A stretch of DNA of 64,000 nt from Astrocystis sublimbata. Its lineage: Eukaryota > Ascomycota > Sordariomycetes > Xylariales > Xylariaceae. The notes beneath the pieces are model-generated. The model did no database searches and was not told the DNA's origin. It saw only the letters and a list, made by a program, of their open reading frames with translations. Made by a program: the position numbers and the translations under genes. How positions within the stretch are numbered: the first letter of the stretch is position 1; every line of letters starts with the position of its first letter. The stretch spans positions 514,345-578,344 of the forward strand of contig JAJNNY010000022.1 of NCBI GenBank assembly GCA_022453515.1, read 5' to 3'. Below are positions 28,083-35,778 of this stretch, one piece after another.

Positions 28083-31000
28083 TCACGTCTGCCACATATA
28101 CTCGCTCAGCGCCAAATGCTTCTCGCCCATCTGCCTCTTCGCCGCCCCATTCACACCGCGTTCCGGATCCGCCAGCTGCACACTGTAGCACAGCTCGACC
28201 AGGTTCTTCAGCTCGTCATAACTAAACTGTTCCGCCGGCGGTATCACCGAGGCCCCTCCCTCTCCCTCTCCCTCTCCCTCCGCAGCAGCAGCCTCCCTCT
28301 CCTTATCCCTCTTCGCCTTCTCCACGACAGCATCCGGCCCTTCCATAAACAGCCTATAATAATTCCCCGCCCGGCCCAAATCGACGTCGGCCTCGATATT
28401 CTTGAGATTCTGCTGCAGCACCAGGATATTGAGCAGCATGCGCTCGCAGCCGCGCGCGTTCATGGGCTGCGTCGCCAGCGCATTCGACACCAGATACGAA
28501 TTAATCAGCAGCGCCAGACCCGTGCGCACGAAGGCGATCTCGCGGTCGCGCAGGAACCGCACGGCCGTCTCGTCGTAGGCGATGAGCTCTGCGTTGAGCG
28601 AGAGGATCTGCGGGTCTGGTTCTTTGATCTCGCGGTCGCCGAGGACGTAGGGTGCCGTCGTGGGCGAGAGGGCGACGCGCAGGGATTGGATGATGCGGCA
28701 CCGGATTTCCATGTGCAGGGTTAGGAGAACGGTGCCTGCTAGCTCTTCGTACGAGGAGACGATCTGGTCGAATGATCTATATGAATTGAGTCAATTTAGT
28801 CCATGAGTTCAAATACAAGGGGGGAGAGGGAGAGAGAGAGAGCTCTTACTGGACAGTATCTTGCGTCATAGGCAGATAAACTGGTCCTCGGTGATCTCCG
28901 TTGACTTTGCTGGGATCGTTCAACAGAGTCCATCTCCGATTTTGATCTTTCGGCATGGTAGGCTGCGACGAGTCTGTGGCGTGTCGGGTGATATGCCGCA
29001 AGCTTACGATCTTGCTCGAGAGCCACTTCATACTGGTGTATAAGAGGCACAATGACGAGATCACGTCTCGGTCCTGTATAACGTCGCTAGGATCCAAGGG
29101 ATATTCATTCGTACGCATGAGTAGCAGCCCGACTTCTTTCTCTATCAGCTCAGGATCGAGTTTGTCAGATGTCCAGAGTCTTTGAATTGTGTCCTGGATA
29201 TCGCCCTCGGTAGTAGCCAGTTCTGCGGAGAATCGCAGCTGTTGTGATGTATTTGTTGTGTCTTGCGCCTTCCCAGCCAGGGATTTAAACCATGTGAAGC
29301 AGCGTTCGTAGTAGTGCATCATCTGCGATATGATCAGAGCGCTCAGGGCCTGGTCGTGGGGAATCGTGCCGAGCATACGACAGAAGGCCGTGACGATGGT
29401 GAAAAATGCAGTCGTTCCCTTGAAAACCGGTCGTCGTGCCACCAAACGCCACTCCGGGTCTTCTTGGAACGAATCGTTCTCGCCCAACACATGGTCGCTT
29501 AATTTGCTCAGCGTCTCATCTAGTTGCGGCTGGAACACGTTAACCAAGAAGTTATCAAGGAAAGATGTCAGCGCGCTGGCTGCCAGGTCAGTGCCGGGAG
29601 GCACAATAGCCTTGAGTCTCTGAATGAAGACGAGAGTTGGCGGTAGGAGGAGGCTCATGTTGAAAACGCTGGGCTCTACTAGAGATTTGTAGGACCCCGG
29701 CGTGTTCTTGCTGTCAAGGCCGCCGCCTACTGTGCTCTTCCGTGCCTCCTTCCCAGTTGCCGTCGTCTTCTTACTGCCAGCCTGTGGCTTACGAGTATTA
29801 GTGCTACCCAGACCCGGTACGGCAGTTTGGATGATGTTATCCAGGGCTTCGTACTCGGCCGCCATTTCGACAGACTTTTGATCCGCTTCCGAGAATTTGA
29901 AAAGCTTGTCTCTCTGTGAATCGTTGGCTCCGTTCATGGCTGTCCCGTTCCGGAGGGAGGAGTCAGACTGGTAGATGTCTGCATCTGTGGTCACGTAATT
30001 GTGAAGAAGTGAACGTATCTCGTTCTGATATAGGTTCCATAATTCTTTGAACCCCCCCAGCAGCTGTGAGCTGCTCCCGGCGCCTTCCTGTCGGGCAAGG
30101 GCTTTTACAGCCTCGTGGAATACACGATGCCCCTCTGCGATGGCCTCAAACTTTGCGTATAGCGTCCATAAAAGATCGTAGATGACATCGGCCCTCATCT
30201 GGGTTTCCCTGTTGCTGTAGATATGGAGCCCCTGGCTGTTGCTGGATCCTCCACGAAGCGAGCTGGGATGTCGCTGATCAACATCGTTGATCGTCTCGTT
30301 CACCACCGCGAAGAGCTCGACAGGAAGTCTCTGGCTCAATGTTTCCACAGCACCCTCTAATCTCCCAAGCTTATTAAGAGACTCGGCAAGCAGGGCGATG
30401 TACCAAGACGTGTCGGCTTCGGGGTTTTTCGAGGGGTCTTCGGTTACAGGTCGTTCGAAATCTAAGGTATCAAGTACGGCGTGAAAAGGGGTGATAGCGG
30501 CCGAGTCGCCGTAATTCTGGTTATATGCGCCCTGGTTCTTGGCCAGACTCTGCCAACGTTCCTGGCAGTAAGGTGACTTCAGGTACAGATGCTCGTGCAA
30601 TTCTTCCACCAGAATATCCATGAGAGCCGTCTCCTGATTCGCCAAGTAGCTCCGGAGATCTGACAAGGCGCCGATGTCGTCGAGCTCCGGTTTCCGTAGT
30701 TTGCGCAGGGCATTTTGCAAGACCTCGACGGCGGTCAGAAAGCGCTTCTCGGAGATGCGCGCCTCGAGTTGGTCGGGCACTGTGCGCAGGTCTTCGAGTT
30801 CGCCCAGGGTCTGCAAGACTTCGTCGTACATCTGCGATGACTTGTATAGCTTCTTGAGTTCGGGGTCGGAGGTGCACAGGCTGGCTTTGGAGGTGGCCAA
30901 GGACTCCTTGAGCTGGCGCACGCGCTTCTGGGAGGCCTGGATGCTGCCCTGGATCTTGTGGAATGTGCCTATGGAGCTGTTGAAGCCCTGGTGGTGCTCG

Positions 31001-31362
31001 TGGACGATGCCCTTCAGCGAGTCCTGCAGGTACTGGTGGGTGGCCTTGAAGTTGTCGTACTCGTTGGCGCGGCCGACGGAGCTGTCGTCGAGCAGCTGCA
31101 GGGCCAGGGACACGGGTATGCAGTCGGTCTGGGTCATGGACGGCCACTCGGCCTTGATCAGCTCGAGGACCTTGGAGATCTCGCGCTCGGCATTAGATTC
31201 GTCTCCGCGCGGGCGCCGCGACGTGGAGCGGGACGAGGGTTGGCGGCCGGGGGCGAAGGGGCGGCGGGAGCTCATCTGCGGCGGCGGCGGGGGAGCATCG
31301 TAGTCATCGTCCATGCCGCCATAGCCGCCGTTGCGGTATGACCCGCCATACCTGTTGGACAT
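28083..31362 (-). CDS. SEC8: Exocyst complex component Sec8
   Basis: Sec8 (EXOC4) is a subunit of the exocyst, which tethers secretory vesicles to the plasma membrane at hyphal tips and septa. Two exons, 31362-28850 and 28776-28083, give 1,068 residues, close to other fungal Sec8 proteins. I chose the start at 31362 (MSNRYGGSYRNGGYGG), which has a Gly-rich head like relatives, over an in-frame ATG 63 nt further out that opens with a Pro run. The N-terminal Sec8 domain is visible with ISKVLELIKAEWPSM and FNSSIGTFHKIQGSIQASQ, followed by a long helical region. The intron (GTAAGA to TATAG) splits a Gln codon and leads into SFDQIVSSYEELAG. A Gly-Glu run lies near the C-terminus. Divergent from VARS with 493 bp between starts. 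Confidence 0.93.
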
Positions 31363-31855
31363 GGTCACCTTCGACGATGCATGCGTGGGGACCGAGGACG
31401 GCGGCGGCGGTGGTGGGCGGCGCACGCACTACCTATCGCATCCGGATTGTTGAGGTAGCTAGCTGCTCGCGACCCGGCGGTCTTAGTGGTGCTGTGAGTT
31501 GATCGCAGGTCGGAACGTAGGTTTCTTTGCTTTGTTGCGTAGATGTTGAAATGTTGAAGGTTGCGCGGGATGTAGTTGTAGAGCTATGAGACCTCGAATT
31601 AGCCCGCTGTCACTGCTGCAGCCTCAGGTCCACGGGTACTACAGTACCCAACAACCTAAATCCCCGGGATCAGCATTGCGAAACAGCAGGGGTTTAGTCT
31701 CCGCCGTCTAAGCCCATGTCGCTGGAGCGGGGCCGCCACAGGTGCCTGCAGGTACCTCTCGCCTACCTTTGCGATAGGTTTTACCATCCCGAACCGGAAT
31801 GGGAAGCCAGTTGGAATATTGACCAAAACCTTGACCACAAACACCCCGCCGCTGG

Positions 31856-32372
31856 ATGGCAGCTCCGTTGCCATCTGCATCTCGTTCCCCACTCACACTT
31901 TCGATCTCCTGCGCTAGGTGTTGGATCTGTCCACGCCGAGTAACTTTAACCGCACCTCACCAATTTTTTAACCGCACCTACTTTGGTACGTCTCCGACCG
32001 AGCGAACTTGCATATACAAACTAGCTACCTAGGTACGTAATTAACCGCCGTTTTTTACGGTCTATATTCGCCCCAGGTAGCCCTTTCGTAAACCATTTCT
32101 TAATCGTAATAATGCCCTTATATCTATTAGCGTTAGGGTTAGTAATTTAGGGTTAGTAGTTAGGGTTTAGGTTAGATATAGTGTTTGGGTTAGATGTAGT
32201 GTTTAGGTCTCTTGGAATGTGTATATTATGGATTGTGTGGCTTGGGTATGTGGCTGTTGAGGCTTAGCTGTAGCTAATAGGGTATAGCGTGCCAAAGTAG
32301 GTGCAGTTAAAAAATCGGTGAGGTGCGGTTAAAGTTACTCGTCCACGCCTGCTCCAGCCAAGAACATTCGCG
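31856..32372 (+). CDS. Alternative 5' coding extension of VARS: likely mitochondrial presequence split by a transposon-derived intron
   Basis: An upstream ATG at 31856 opens MAAPLPSASRSPLTLSISC, then ARCWICPRR, with no acidic residue and several Arg and Ser, typical of a mitochondrial targeting sequence. Reading stops inside the inserted element unless the DNA from 31940 (GTAACT) to 32357 (CAG) is spliced out. That join is in phase and continues PRTFAM, where M is the VARS start at 32373. The extended protein would have 1,100 residues. The context of ATG 31856 is weak (T at -3) while that of 32373 is good (G at -3), which fits leaky scanning. Yeast VAS1 makes mitochondrial and cytosolic ValRS from two starts in one gene. 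The reading frame and splice sites are seen; use of the start is inferred. Confidence 0.6.
31938..32340. mobile_element. 403-bp non-autonomous DNA transposon (MULE-like MITE) inserted in the VARS leader
   Basis: Left end 31938-31986 and right end 32292-32340 are inverted repeats of 49 bp with two mismatches, opening GAGTAACTTTAACCGCACCT. The element is flanked by a perfect 9-bp direct duplication, GTCCACGCC, at 31929-31937 and 32341-32349. Nine-base duplications and long inverted repeats are typical of Mutator-like elements. Each inverted repeat contains TTTAACCGCACCT twice, a possible transposase-binding repeat. The interior has no ORF and carries several TTAGGG-like units at about 32127-32180. 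The near identity of the arms and the intact duplication suggest a fairly recent insertion without RIP. Its left arm supplies a GTAACT donor-like site. Confidence 0.9.
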
Positions 32373-35300
32373 ATGGCCACCAGGGCCGACGACGGGGCCG
32401 GTAACCGCCTAGAGAAAAGCGTAAAAAATGGTACGAACCCCGGCGGGCCTGGGCAGAACATGGGGGCCGCTTTACTTACACTAGACTTTTCCTGTAGCCG
32501 AGAAAGAACGCGAGAAGGAACGCAAGAAGCAGGAGAAGCAGGCTCGATTTGAATTGAAGCAGGCTAAGAAGGGCACCGGCGACGGTGGATTAGGTGGAGC
32601 TGGTGGAGCTGGTCCTGCCACCTCGACGGCCTCGGCTGCATCGACTAAAGCGACCGCCAAACCCAAGGGCAACGGTCCTAGTCTCGACACAACCGAACTG
32701 CCCCGCTACATCGAGGCCACTCCCCCCGGCGAGAAGAAGAGTAAGTGACTCGCAACGTCTTGTTATAATACTGCGGCTACGGTCCCCTCGATTGACGCGG
32801 CCGTATTTCTAGAGCTTACGTCGTTCGATGACCCCCACTTCAAAGCCTACAACCCCGATGCTGTGGAATCCGCCTGGTATGAGTGGTGGGAGAAGGAGGG
32901 CTTCTTCAAGCCCCAGCTGGCTGAGAATGGCGCCGTTAAGCAAGAGGGCTCTTTCGTAGTCGTGTTGCCTCCTCCCAATGTCACTGGAAATCTTCACGTT
33001 GGCCATGCTCTCGGTAATGCTCTTCAGGACATTATGGTTCGTTGGAACCGGATGCTTGGCAAGACGACCCTATGGCTCCCGGGATGTGACCACGCGAGCA
33101 TTTCCACCCAGACTGTAGTGGAAAATATGCTCTGGAGACGAGAGGGAAAGACCCGTCATGATCTCGGCAGGGCCAACTTTATCGAGACCGCCTGGAAGTG
33201 GAAGGAAGAGTACCACCGCAACATCAATAATGCACAGAGGAGGATGGGTGGCTCTTTCGACTGGTCTCGCGAGGCTTTTACGATGGATGCCAATCTTACT
33301 GCCGCTGTCCAGGAAACCTTCGTCAGGTTCCATGAAGAAGGCCTCATCTACCGCGCCAATCGACTCGTGAATTGGTGTACCAAATTAAACACAGCCCTCT
33401 CCAATCTAGAGGTTGTTAACAAGGAACTGTCCGGCCGTACCCTACTCGATGTCCCAGGTTATCAACGCAAAGTGGAGTTTGGCGTTATAACCCATTTTCT
33501 CTACCCTATTGATGGTGCTGATGAAACCATTGAGGTTGCAACGACTCGTCCGGAAACTATGCTCGGCGATACTGGAATTGCCGTTCACCCAAGTGACGAA
33601 AGATACCGTCATCTCGTTGGTAAAAAGGCTCGCCACCCTTTCATTCCCGGCCGATTACTTCCCATCGTGGCTGATGACTACGTTGATAAGGAGTTTGGTA
33701 CGGGAGCCGTCAAGATCACGCCTGCTCACGATGCCAATGACTTCGCTCTCGGCCAGAGACACAATTTAGAATTTATTAACATCTTGACAGACGACGGTCT
33801 CATGAACGAGAATGCGGGCCCATACTGCGGCCAGAAGAGATTTGATGTACGTTATGCAATACAGGAGGACTTGAAAAATGCTGGCTTGTTCGTGGGTAAA
33901 AATGATAACCCCATGACGGTGCCGCTGTGTGAGAAGTCCAAAGACGTAATCGAGCCACTTATGAAGCCACAGTGGTGGATGCGAATGCGAGGTCTTGCGG
34001 ACGCAGCATCCGCCGCCGTCCGAAACGGCGAGATCACCTTCAAGCCACAGGCTGCGGAAAAGAGCTTTTTTCGATGGATGGATGATATTAACGACTGGTG
34101 CATCTCGAGGCAACTTTGGTGGGGTCACCAATGCCCAGTATATTTTGCACACATTGAGGGTGAAGCCGATCGGAGCGATAACGCTCGCTGGTTCTCGGGC
34201 CACACTGAAGAAGTGGCCCTAGCAAAAGCAACAAAAGCCTTCCCGGGAAAGCAGATCACGCTCGAGAGGGACCCAGACGTCCTTGACACCTGGTTTTCGG
34301 CGGGACTATGGCCGTTCGCAACTTTGGGCTGGCCGAAGTCGACAGACGACATGGACAAGTTCTACCCAACCTCCGTCTTGGAAACTGGCTGGGACATCCT
34401 GTTCTTCTGGATTGCTCGAATGGTTATGCTCGGCATAAAGTTGACTGGCCAAGTGCCGTTTCGCGAGGTGTATTGTCATTCTCTCGTTCGAGACTCTGAC
34501 GGACGGAAGATGTCCAAGTCACTCGGTAATGTGATCGATCCCAGGGATGTCATTACTGGTATCAGTCTCGAAGACCTTAACGTCAAGTTATTGATGGGAA
34601 ACCTGGCACCCTCGGAGGTAGAAAAGGCGAAGAAGTACCAAAAAACAGCTTTCCCGCATGGTATTCCTCAGTGTGGCACAGATGCTCTGCGATTCTGCCT
34701 CGCGTCCTACGCTACAGGCAGTGGCGATATCAATCTGGATGTCAAGGTTTTGCATGGGTATCGAAAGTTTTGCAACAAGATTTACCAGGCCCTAAAATAC
34801 ATGCTTGGCAACTTGGACGCCGGATTCATCCCCGATAAACGCCCGAAACCAGGCAAAACTCTTGCAGAGCGGTGGATTCTGCATAAGATGACCATGTCCG
34901 CGAAGGCAATCAATCACGCTTTAGAGGAACGTGAGTTCATGAAATCAACTGGCATTGTCTACCAGTACTGGTATAGCAATCTGTGTGACGTCTTCATCGA
35001 GAACTCGAAGGCCCTTATCAGGGATGGATCTGAAGAAGAGAGAGAGTCCGTGAAGCAGACTTTATACACGGCTGTCGAATTCGCACTTCTCATGAGCCAT
35101 CCATTTATGCCGTTCTTGACGGAGGAACTTTGGCAGCGCCTGCCTCGCCGTCCTGGAGATGTGACACCTTCCATAGTACTAGCCTCGTATCCCGTGTACG
35201 ACAGTATTATGGATGATCCCGATGCTGAGGTGGCGTATGAACTCATTCAAGCATGTTCCCGAGAGATTCGGTCTGTCGTGTCCCAGTATAAGTTGGACGA

Positions 35301-35778
35301 GGTTCAGAGTAAGTGATGCTGACAAAAACGACGTCTCGAGCTCCAGACCTGAACTAACCTGTTTCTTCCAGTTTCCATACAATCTCTCGATACCGCCTCG
35401 TTAGAGACACTGAAAAACCAAGTGCAGTCTATCTCGTCGCTCACCGGACAGGTAATCCTACAGAACAACATCTTGTCACCGAATGAACCGCGTCCATCTG
35501 GCTGCGTCGCCTCAACTGTCTCAAATCTGGCGACGGTATACCTATTCGTCAAGGGTCGCGTAGACTTGAATGCAGAGGCGAATAAAGCTAGATCTTACCT
35601 AGAAAAGACACAGGCCGCGATAGAGAAGCAGCTGAAGAGCATGGCTGTGGCTAGTTACCAGGAGAAGGTGACCCAATCTGTAAGGGATACCGACAATGCA
35701 AGATTGGCAGGACTGCAGACAGAGGCTACTGCACTACAAGGGACGATCAAACAGTTTGAGCAACTGCAGGTAGAGTAA
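32373..35778 (+). CDS. VAS1: Valyl-tRNA synthetase
   Basis: Class I aminoacyl-tRNA synthetase that charges tRNA-Val. Exons 32373-32430, 32498-32740, 32813-35308 and 35372-35778 give 1,067 residues for the cytosolic form. The first donor is uncertain: GTACGA at 32431 is chosen, GTAACC at 32401 also fits the phase. The N-terminal Lys/Glu-rich stretch ([14 protein letters not shown]) is usual in eukaryotes. The HIGH motif appears as HVGH at residues 162-165 within [15 protein letters not shown]. Editing-domain motifs include [23 protein letters not shown] stands at 666-670 within [13 protein letters not shown]-terminal coiled coil follows ([19 protein letters not shown]). An upstream extension probably gives the mitochondrial form (see 31856-32372). 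Confidence 0.95.

Follow-up and report, generated by a model that had tools for sequence, protein, structure and literature searches.

The window analyzed here is a 64,000-nucleotide stretch of the Astrocystis sublimbata genome (contig JAJNNY010000022.1) that carries a valyl-tRNA synthetase gene, hereafter ValRS1, on its plus strand. As annotated, the first coding exon of ValRS1 spans 32373..32430 and is followed by coding exon 2 (32498..32740), by coding exon 3 with the catalytic core (32813..35308), and by a final coding exon from 35372 on, the introns being 67, 72, and 63 nt long. The deposited NCBI protein from A. sublimbata (P0002, 1067 aa) is identical to this product and starts at the ATG at 32373, a start that may have been placed by gene prediction alone. 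The divergent neighbor on the minus strand is the SEC8 gene of the exocyst (28849..31363), which contains the Sec8_N and Sec8_C domains and whose start codon we placed by eye near 31363.

Ahead of ValRS1, and only 32 bp upstream of its annotated ATG, lies a non-coding, non-autonomous inverted-repeat transposon of 403 bp (31938..32340, no strand assigned), which we recognize as MITE-like from its ends, its target duplication, and its family. The left terminal inverted repeat (31938..31990, plus strand) pairs with the right one (32288..32340, minus strand) over 53 nt with 3 mismatches, or over 49 nt with 2, and the element begins with GAGTAACTTTAACCGCACC and finishes with GGTGCGGTTAAAGTTACTC. 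Two plus-strand copies of the target-site duplication GTCCACGCC (31929..31937 and 32341..32349) flank it and agree at 9/9 positions. The left arm holds a subterminal direct repeat, TTTAACCGCACCT, at 31945-31957 and again at 31967-31979. Frames opened by ATGs on the plus strand of the element encode 1-16 aa; five such upstream ATGs with short open frames (32112, 32194, 32217, 32228, and 32248) fall within 32112..32250. When 31906-32372 is folded as RNA, the predicted energy is -177.8 kcal/mol (z -7.2), and 0 of 100 shuffled sequences fold equally low. An initial annotation made from the sequence of the window had described a 403-bp element with 49-bp inverted repeats and a 9-bp duplication, and each of these features is borne out, which supports a transposon insertion that duplicated its target in the 5' portion of ValRS1. 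Because the duplication is perfect, the insertion is probably recent.

A DNA search of the genome with the element returned 19 matches at 16 distinct places. The window copy is the only full-length match, and the next best one, at 79%, covers positions 52-400 of the query. Searching by the element ends yielded five elements bounded on both sides, along with three places at which a single end was present. We inspected 17 places for ends and duplication, namely the 16 DNA matches and C137, which had been found by its ends; the one-end places L040, L043, and L048 were left out of this count. Matching ends together with a 9-bp duplication were found at 13 of the 17 (11 perfect, 2 with one mismatch) and were not found at the other four. 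Copies in the family measure 320-473 bp. Their ends are of the types GAGTAAC, GAGTAAGG, GAGCA/GAGTG, and CAGGTCA, around a shared core rich in TTAGGG-like repeats. GTAA stands at an end in 6/13 copies only (the GAGTAAC and GAGTAAG types), with GAGCA, GAGGA, GAGTC, GAGTG, or CAGGT at the ends of the remaining seven, so a splice site is not kept across the copies. Elements with differing ends (GAGTAAC and GAGCA/GAGTG) share the TTAGGG/TTAGGGTTTGGGTTAGAT-like core, which is seen at 32115-32228 in the window and in the L004-L008 and L020-L034 copies, as if ends had been swapped around a telomere-like core.

Mutator-like MITEs are recognized by a 9-bp (8-11) target duplication and long terminal inverted repeats, and Mu elements make a 9-bp duplication and prefer the 5' ends of genes. 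The ValRS1 element has the 9-bp duplication and the long inverted repeats, is shorter than 800 bp, and lacks coding capacity. On account of the duplication and the repeats, we class it as a probable MITE belonging to the Mutator-like superfamily. The sole MULE domain found in the genome (PF10551 on C18, L035 1501-1806) has an internal TAA stop, and no family-type ends were found within 1.5 kb of it; the genome search likewise returned no source transposase for the family. Since the flanks of this lone domain are without the family's repeats, the Mutator assignment is founded on the length of the duplication and the type of repeat. Among the titles and abstract openings listed by searches on fungal Mutator MITEs and on Xylaria MITEs, none describes the family.

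Five of the 12 other intact copies precede an open frame that matches a Pfam domain; measured to the first ATG of that frame, the distances are 185, 312, 329, 363, and 463 bp, and the domains are, in that order, lipoyl ligase, DEDDh_C (below the model cut-off), HET, HIRAN, and TAFII55. Three more are farther from an open frame: 928 bp from one of the beta-lactamase family, 1167 bp from a cyclophilin frame, and 1268 bp from a frame that showed no domain. No clear neighbor gene was found for the copies on C137, C128, C144, and C117. The window copy, 32 bp ahead of an annotated start, fits this 5'-region pattern. Introner copies occur as introns of many genes, and the initial annotation had advised checking whether other copies of the element also lie in spliced positions; 0/12 could be placed in a coding exon. 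This is a weak test, as the coding score gives the upstream frame of the window itself only -0.7 (another frame there scores 5.1, and the C13a site 5.5). Open frames do run across the empty sites of C144 (276 codons), C24 (157 codons), and C146a (114 codons), and an exonic location was considered for these copies. The frames did not bear this out, although it may still hold: the pieces of the C144 frame (L026 3887-5080) gave no Pfam match, and an antisense frame of 147 codons runs across the window's own site as well.

The genome contains a second valyl-tRNA synthetase gene, ValRS2 (C122:257327-259827, L019), found as two pieces 66% and 56% identical. The initial annotation had advised looking for another mitochondrial ValRS gene, and ValRS2 answers to that description in being annotated with a presequence: its NCBI protein (P0122, 1035 aa) starts at MFIPGRCLRFRFSRPTSS...LRMATEK. 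We compared 20 listed Xylariales entries of the ValRS2 type (P0122-P0140 and P0142). A basic extension with no acidic residue in the first 25 positions is present in 11 of them, P0122 included (10/19 relatives), and a GR[CYF]xR motif in 9/20; an internal MA[ASTV] start follows in 9 of the 11 extension-bearing entries. For eight of the 20 the annotation begins at the downstream ATG, and one entry is truncated; given those eight, annotation alone does not settle where these proteins start. Two entries, P0138 (Xylaria palmicola) and P0139 (Xylaria sp. CBS 124048), have the extension and no Met at the usual second start and may be made in the long form only. The order found in ValRS2, a presequence and then an internal ATG, recurs among its relatives, and ValRS2 is probably a dual rather than a dedicated mitochondrial enzyme. 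The initial annotation had named a second mitochondrial ValRS gene, together with an unconserved ValRS1 extension, as what would refute its reading, and ValRS2 supplies the first half of that pair. The existence of this gene, with its annotated presequence and with 11 of the 20 entries extended, weakens the earlier suggestion that splicing at ValRS1 sets the balance between mitochondrial and cytosolic ValRS.

In a tree of 43 sequences chosen out of 216 besides P0001, one clade (100/100) joins ValRS2 to enzymes of Sordariales and Eurotiales; it also includes Venturia, labelled for the other clade. In that second clade lie ValRS1, P0003, and P0040, which share a stem of 0.32 and stand outside its Xylariales group. 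There appear to be two old ValRS clades in Pezizomycotina with patchy retention, of which Astrocystis holds both. Among the best 120 of 7997 matches and the best 120 of 165, the only clusters of the ValRS1 kind besides P0002 are P0003 and P0040. The three were counted as clusters and have 5 (P0002), 2 (P0003), and 1 (P0040) member sequences; with five sequences in the P0002 cluster, ValRS1 may be commoner than the cluster count suggests. ValRS1 is a divergent paralogue and probably a redundant one. The GCDHAS segment of ValRS1 was considered as the mark of a lost glycine and dropped, as S occurs there in 9 of 202 motif-holding sequences (out of 259 of at least 950 aa). The ValRS1-like P0040 (Xylaria digitata) is annotated without the HIGH and KMSKS segments; the ValRS2 model P0136 lacks HIGH/KMSKS too, and for that reason bad gene models, and not decay, may explain the gaps.

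The frame that opens at an upstream ATG (31856..31937, plus strand, MAAPLPSASRSPLTLSISCARCWICPR) is a possible ancestral presequence of ValRS1. With the element retained, the frame from ATG 31856 reaches a stop ending at 32032, and the initial annotation was correct that the presequence frame is thereby removed. With the element taken out, the empty site reads ...CPRLLQPRTFA ahead of the downstream ATG at 32373, and the extension comes to 35 residues, of which 4 are arginines and none is acidic. Among dinucleotide shuffles, 872/5000 contain an upstream in-frame ATG whose extension reaches 25 aa or more; it is acid-free in 110/5000, and both acid-free and furnished with 5 or more basic residues in 43/5000 (the real extension has 4). 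Because such extensions arise so often by shuffling, the reading of the frame as a presequence is suggestive only. It may instead never have been a presequence, in which case the element would be a plain promoter or 5' UTR insertion; we give this appreciable weight, somewhat short of an even chance, and it is compatible with the explanation that we prefer below. The frequency of long extensions among the shuffles speaks for it, as do the coding score of -0.7 across the empty site, no better than that of non-coding DNA, and the annotation of the ValRS1 group, in which none of three proteins (P0003, P0040, and P0002) has an extension. However, just 110 of the 5000 shuffles give an acid-free extension, P0100 and P0070 from the same large clade carry an annotated presequence, and the VAS1-type P0256 is named as mitochondrial and cytoplasmic.

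The more far-reaching proposal of the initial annotation was that the element acts as a new intron, or introner, with a donor GTAACT inside the left inverted repeat (31940..31945) and an acceptor CAG in host sequence (32355..32357), both on the plus strand. The arithmetic holds: joining 31939 to 32358 is in phase, meets no stop, and restores the MAAPL... frame with three residues replaced by one. This pairing says little, because, of 96 GT-AG pairs that can be drawn around the element, 12 bring the frame back without a stop. The TTAC named as a possible branch site is also present (32335-32338), but it lies 19-22 nt, not 22-25 nt, ahead of the final base of the intron. Candidate introns picked by coding potential in the window and neighboring loci gave no splice consensus; donors were scored with base frequencies given for 2022 Fusarium introns in part of PMC5677156, that is, from another order than the host, with positions treated as independent. 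The donor CGA/GTAACT is weak, scoring -2.0 vs 4.5, 5.3, and 5.3 for the donors of ValRS1 itself; 23% of the window's 7359 GT sites do as well or better, and among donors sampled at these Fusarium frequencies 3.1% come out as low. It has C at +5, as do 1% of those Fusarium introns. None of the branch motifs CTRAY, CTHAH, TTRAY, and ACCAT occurs in the last 60 nt before the acceptor. The intron would measure 418 nt vs the 63-72 nt of ValRS1's own introns, a length inside the range of 42-529 nt stated there for Fusarium (PMC5677156). In the predicted fold, GTAACT pairs with the AGTTAC that holds the proposed branch TTAC, the donor having a pairing probability of about 1.0 in the hairpin. The same GTAACT lies within the inverted repeat of other copies too, ones that could not be placed in exons. 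That the element is excised from this donor to the host acceptor at 32357, so that a mitochondrial ValRS1 is kept with one residue in place of three, is consequently very improbable in our view. A hairpin would draw donor and acceptor together, and some introners described in PMC9860276 carry one splice site and borrow the second from target sequence or an exon; the ends of two related copies would even make better donors, on C24 (GAGTAAGG, GTAAGG) and in one arm of C137 (GAGTAAGT, GTAAGT). Against these points stand the weak donor, its pairing with the proposed branch strand, the missing branch motif, the ease with which GT-AG pairs restore the frame, and the family, where GTAA ends are a minority and exonic copies were not found. 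Marginally less improbable is that some transcripts or more are spliced, whether by these sites or by others, which would make the element a recently inserted DNA-transposon intron with terminal inverted repeats, a target duplication, and hairpin-joined splice sites. A better-signaled candidate lies inside the element itself (32033..32287, plus strand), where TAG/GTACGT is followed by CTAAT (32274) and ATAG. Its removal would leave the stop immediately ahead of it in the exon, so the presequence would not be recovered. It might serve as a 5' UTR intron by partial splicing, or the element might be used otherwise, as by giving a start site, with expression changed and not targeting. We consider such a use unlikely, albeit a better prospect than removal of the whole element: the GT at 32033 ranks in the top 0.2% of the window and that at 31986 in the top 0.5%, CTAAT falls about 10 nt before the acceptor at 32287, and five related copies sit at most 463 bp upstream of an open frame; yet GTACGT is changed to GTATAT in the next closest copy, 255 nt is long beside ValRS1's own introns, and the signals are those of the sequence alone.

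We therefore favor, as a reasonably probable account, a MITE in the 5' leader of ValRS1, with ValRS1 cytosolic from ATG 32373 and the mitochondrial ValRS coming from ValRS2. The element, its duplication, its family, and the gene structure are direct observations, and the rest of the account is conditional. A short non-autonomous DNA transposon would have inserted into the leader region of ValRS1, where the pre-mRNA would either keep it as a hairpin or be transcribed from within or after it. Were transcription to start upstream, the five ATGs in the element would hamper translation from 32373 and favor splicing or a start inside or after the element. The upstream frame, the ancestral presequence if it was one, would be severed by the stop ending at 32032, and translation of ValRS1 would begin solely at ATG 32373 and give a cytosolic enzyme. 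ValRS2, with its presequence and its second ATG downstream, would supply the mitochondrial ValRS. The contrast of starts exists within one genome, P0002 being annotated from 32373 and P0122 from its presequence. Such an insertion could be tolerated because ValRS1 would be a redundant, diverged extra copy.

The case looks like an ordinary MITE insertion rather than a newborn intron, and it illustrates that GT-AG pairs found in phase around a transposon lend little weight to a claim of intron gain. It also suggests that a short inverted-repeat element may sever the possible targeting frame of one member of a duplicated pair of tRNA synthetase genes, by which paralogues could plausibly become specialized for different subcellular compartments. 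If the element were spliced after all, an ascomycete would here have gained, through a cut-and-paste element, an intron whose origin can be dated.

Several known systems offer comparisons. Dual-targeted fungal ValRS genes (yeast VAS1 and Neurospora cyt-20) have a presequence ATG and a downstream cytosolic ATG, an arrangement that ValRS2 fits; ValRS1 differs in that its upstream frame is interrupted. Maize Ds elements are spliced as introns. Both Ds and the window element are short transposons that sit within a gene and have splice sites inside or close to their termini; splicing has been demonstrated for Ds, whereas the sites here are candidates by sequence. The closest likeness in structure is to Mutator-like (MULE) MITEs, which match in being short and non-coding, in their long inverted repeats and 9-bp duplication, and in that several copies lie near gene 5' ends; the present family departs from them in its differing ends around a common core and in that no autonomous partner was found in the genome. 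DNA-transposon introners, as presented in sections of PMC9860276, resemble the element in having inverted repeats, a target duplication, and a possible splice site in the repeat to go with another in the host, but here 0/12 other copies could be assigned to exons and the splice sites are candidates by sequence. The ascomycete introner families in those sections are reported without TIRs or TSDs (PMC9860276). According to PMC12403724, the [D1,2] stwintrons of Hypoxylaceae and Xylariaceae are spliced introns at which target duplications are not in evidence, unlike the window element. Compared by that description, they nevertheless share with it the fungal family, near-terminal inverted repeats, and gains at new positions (PMC12403724).
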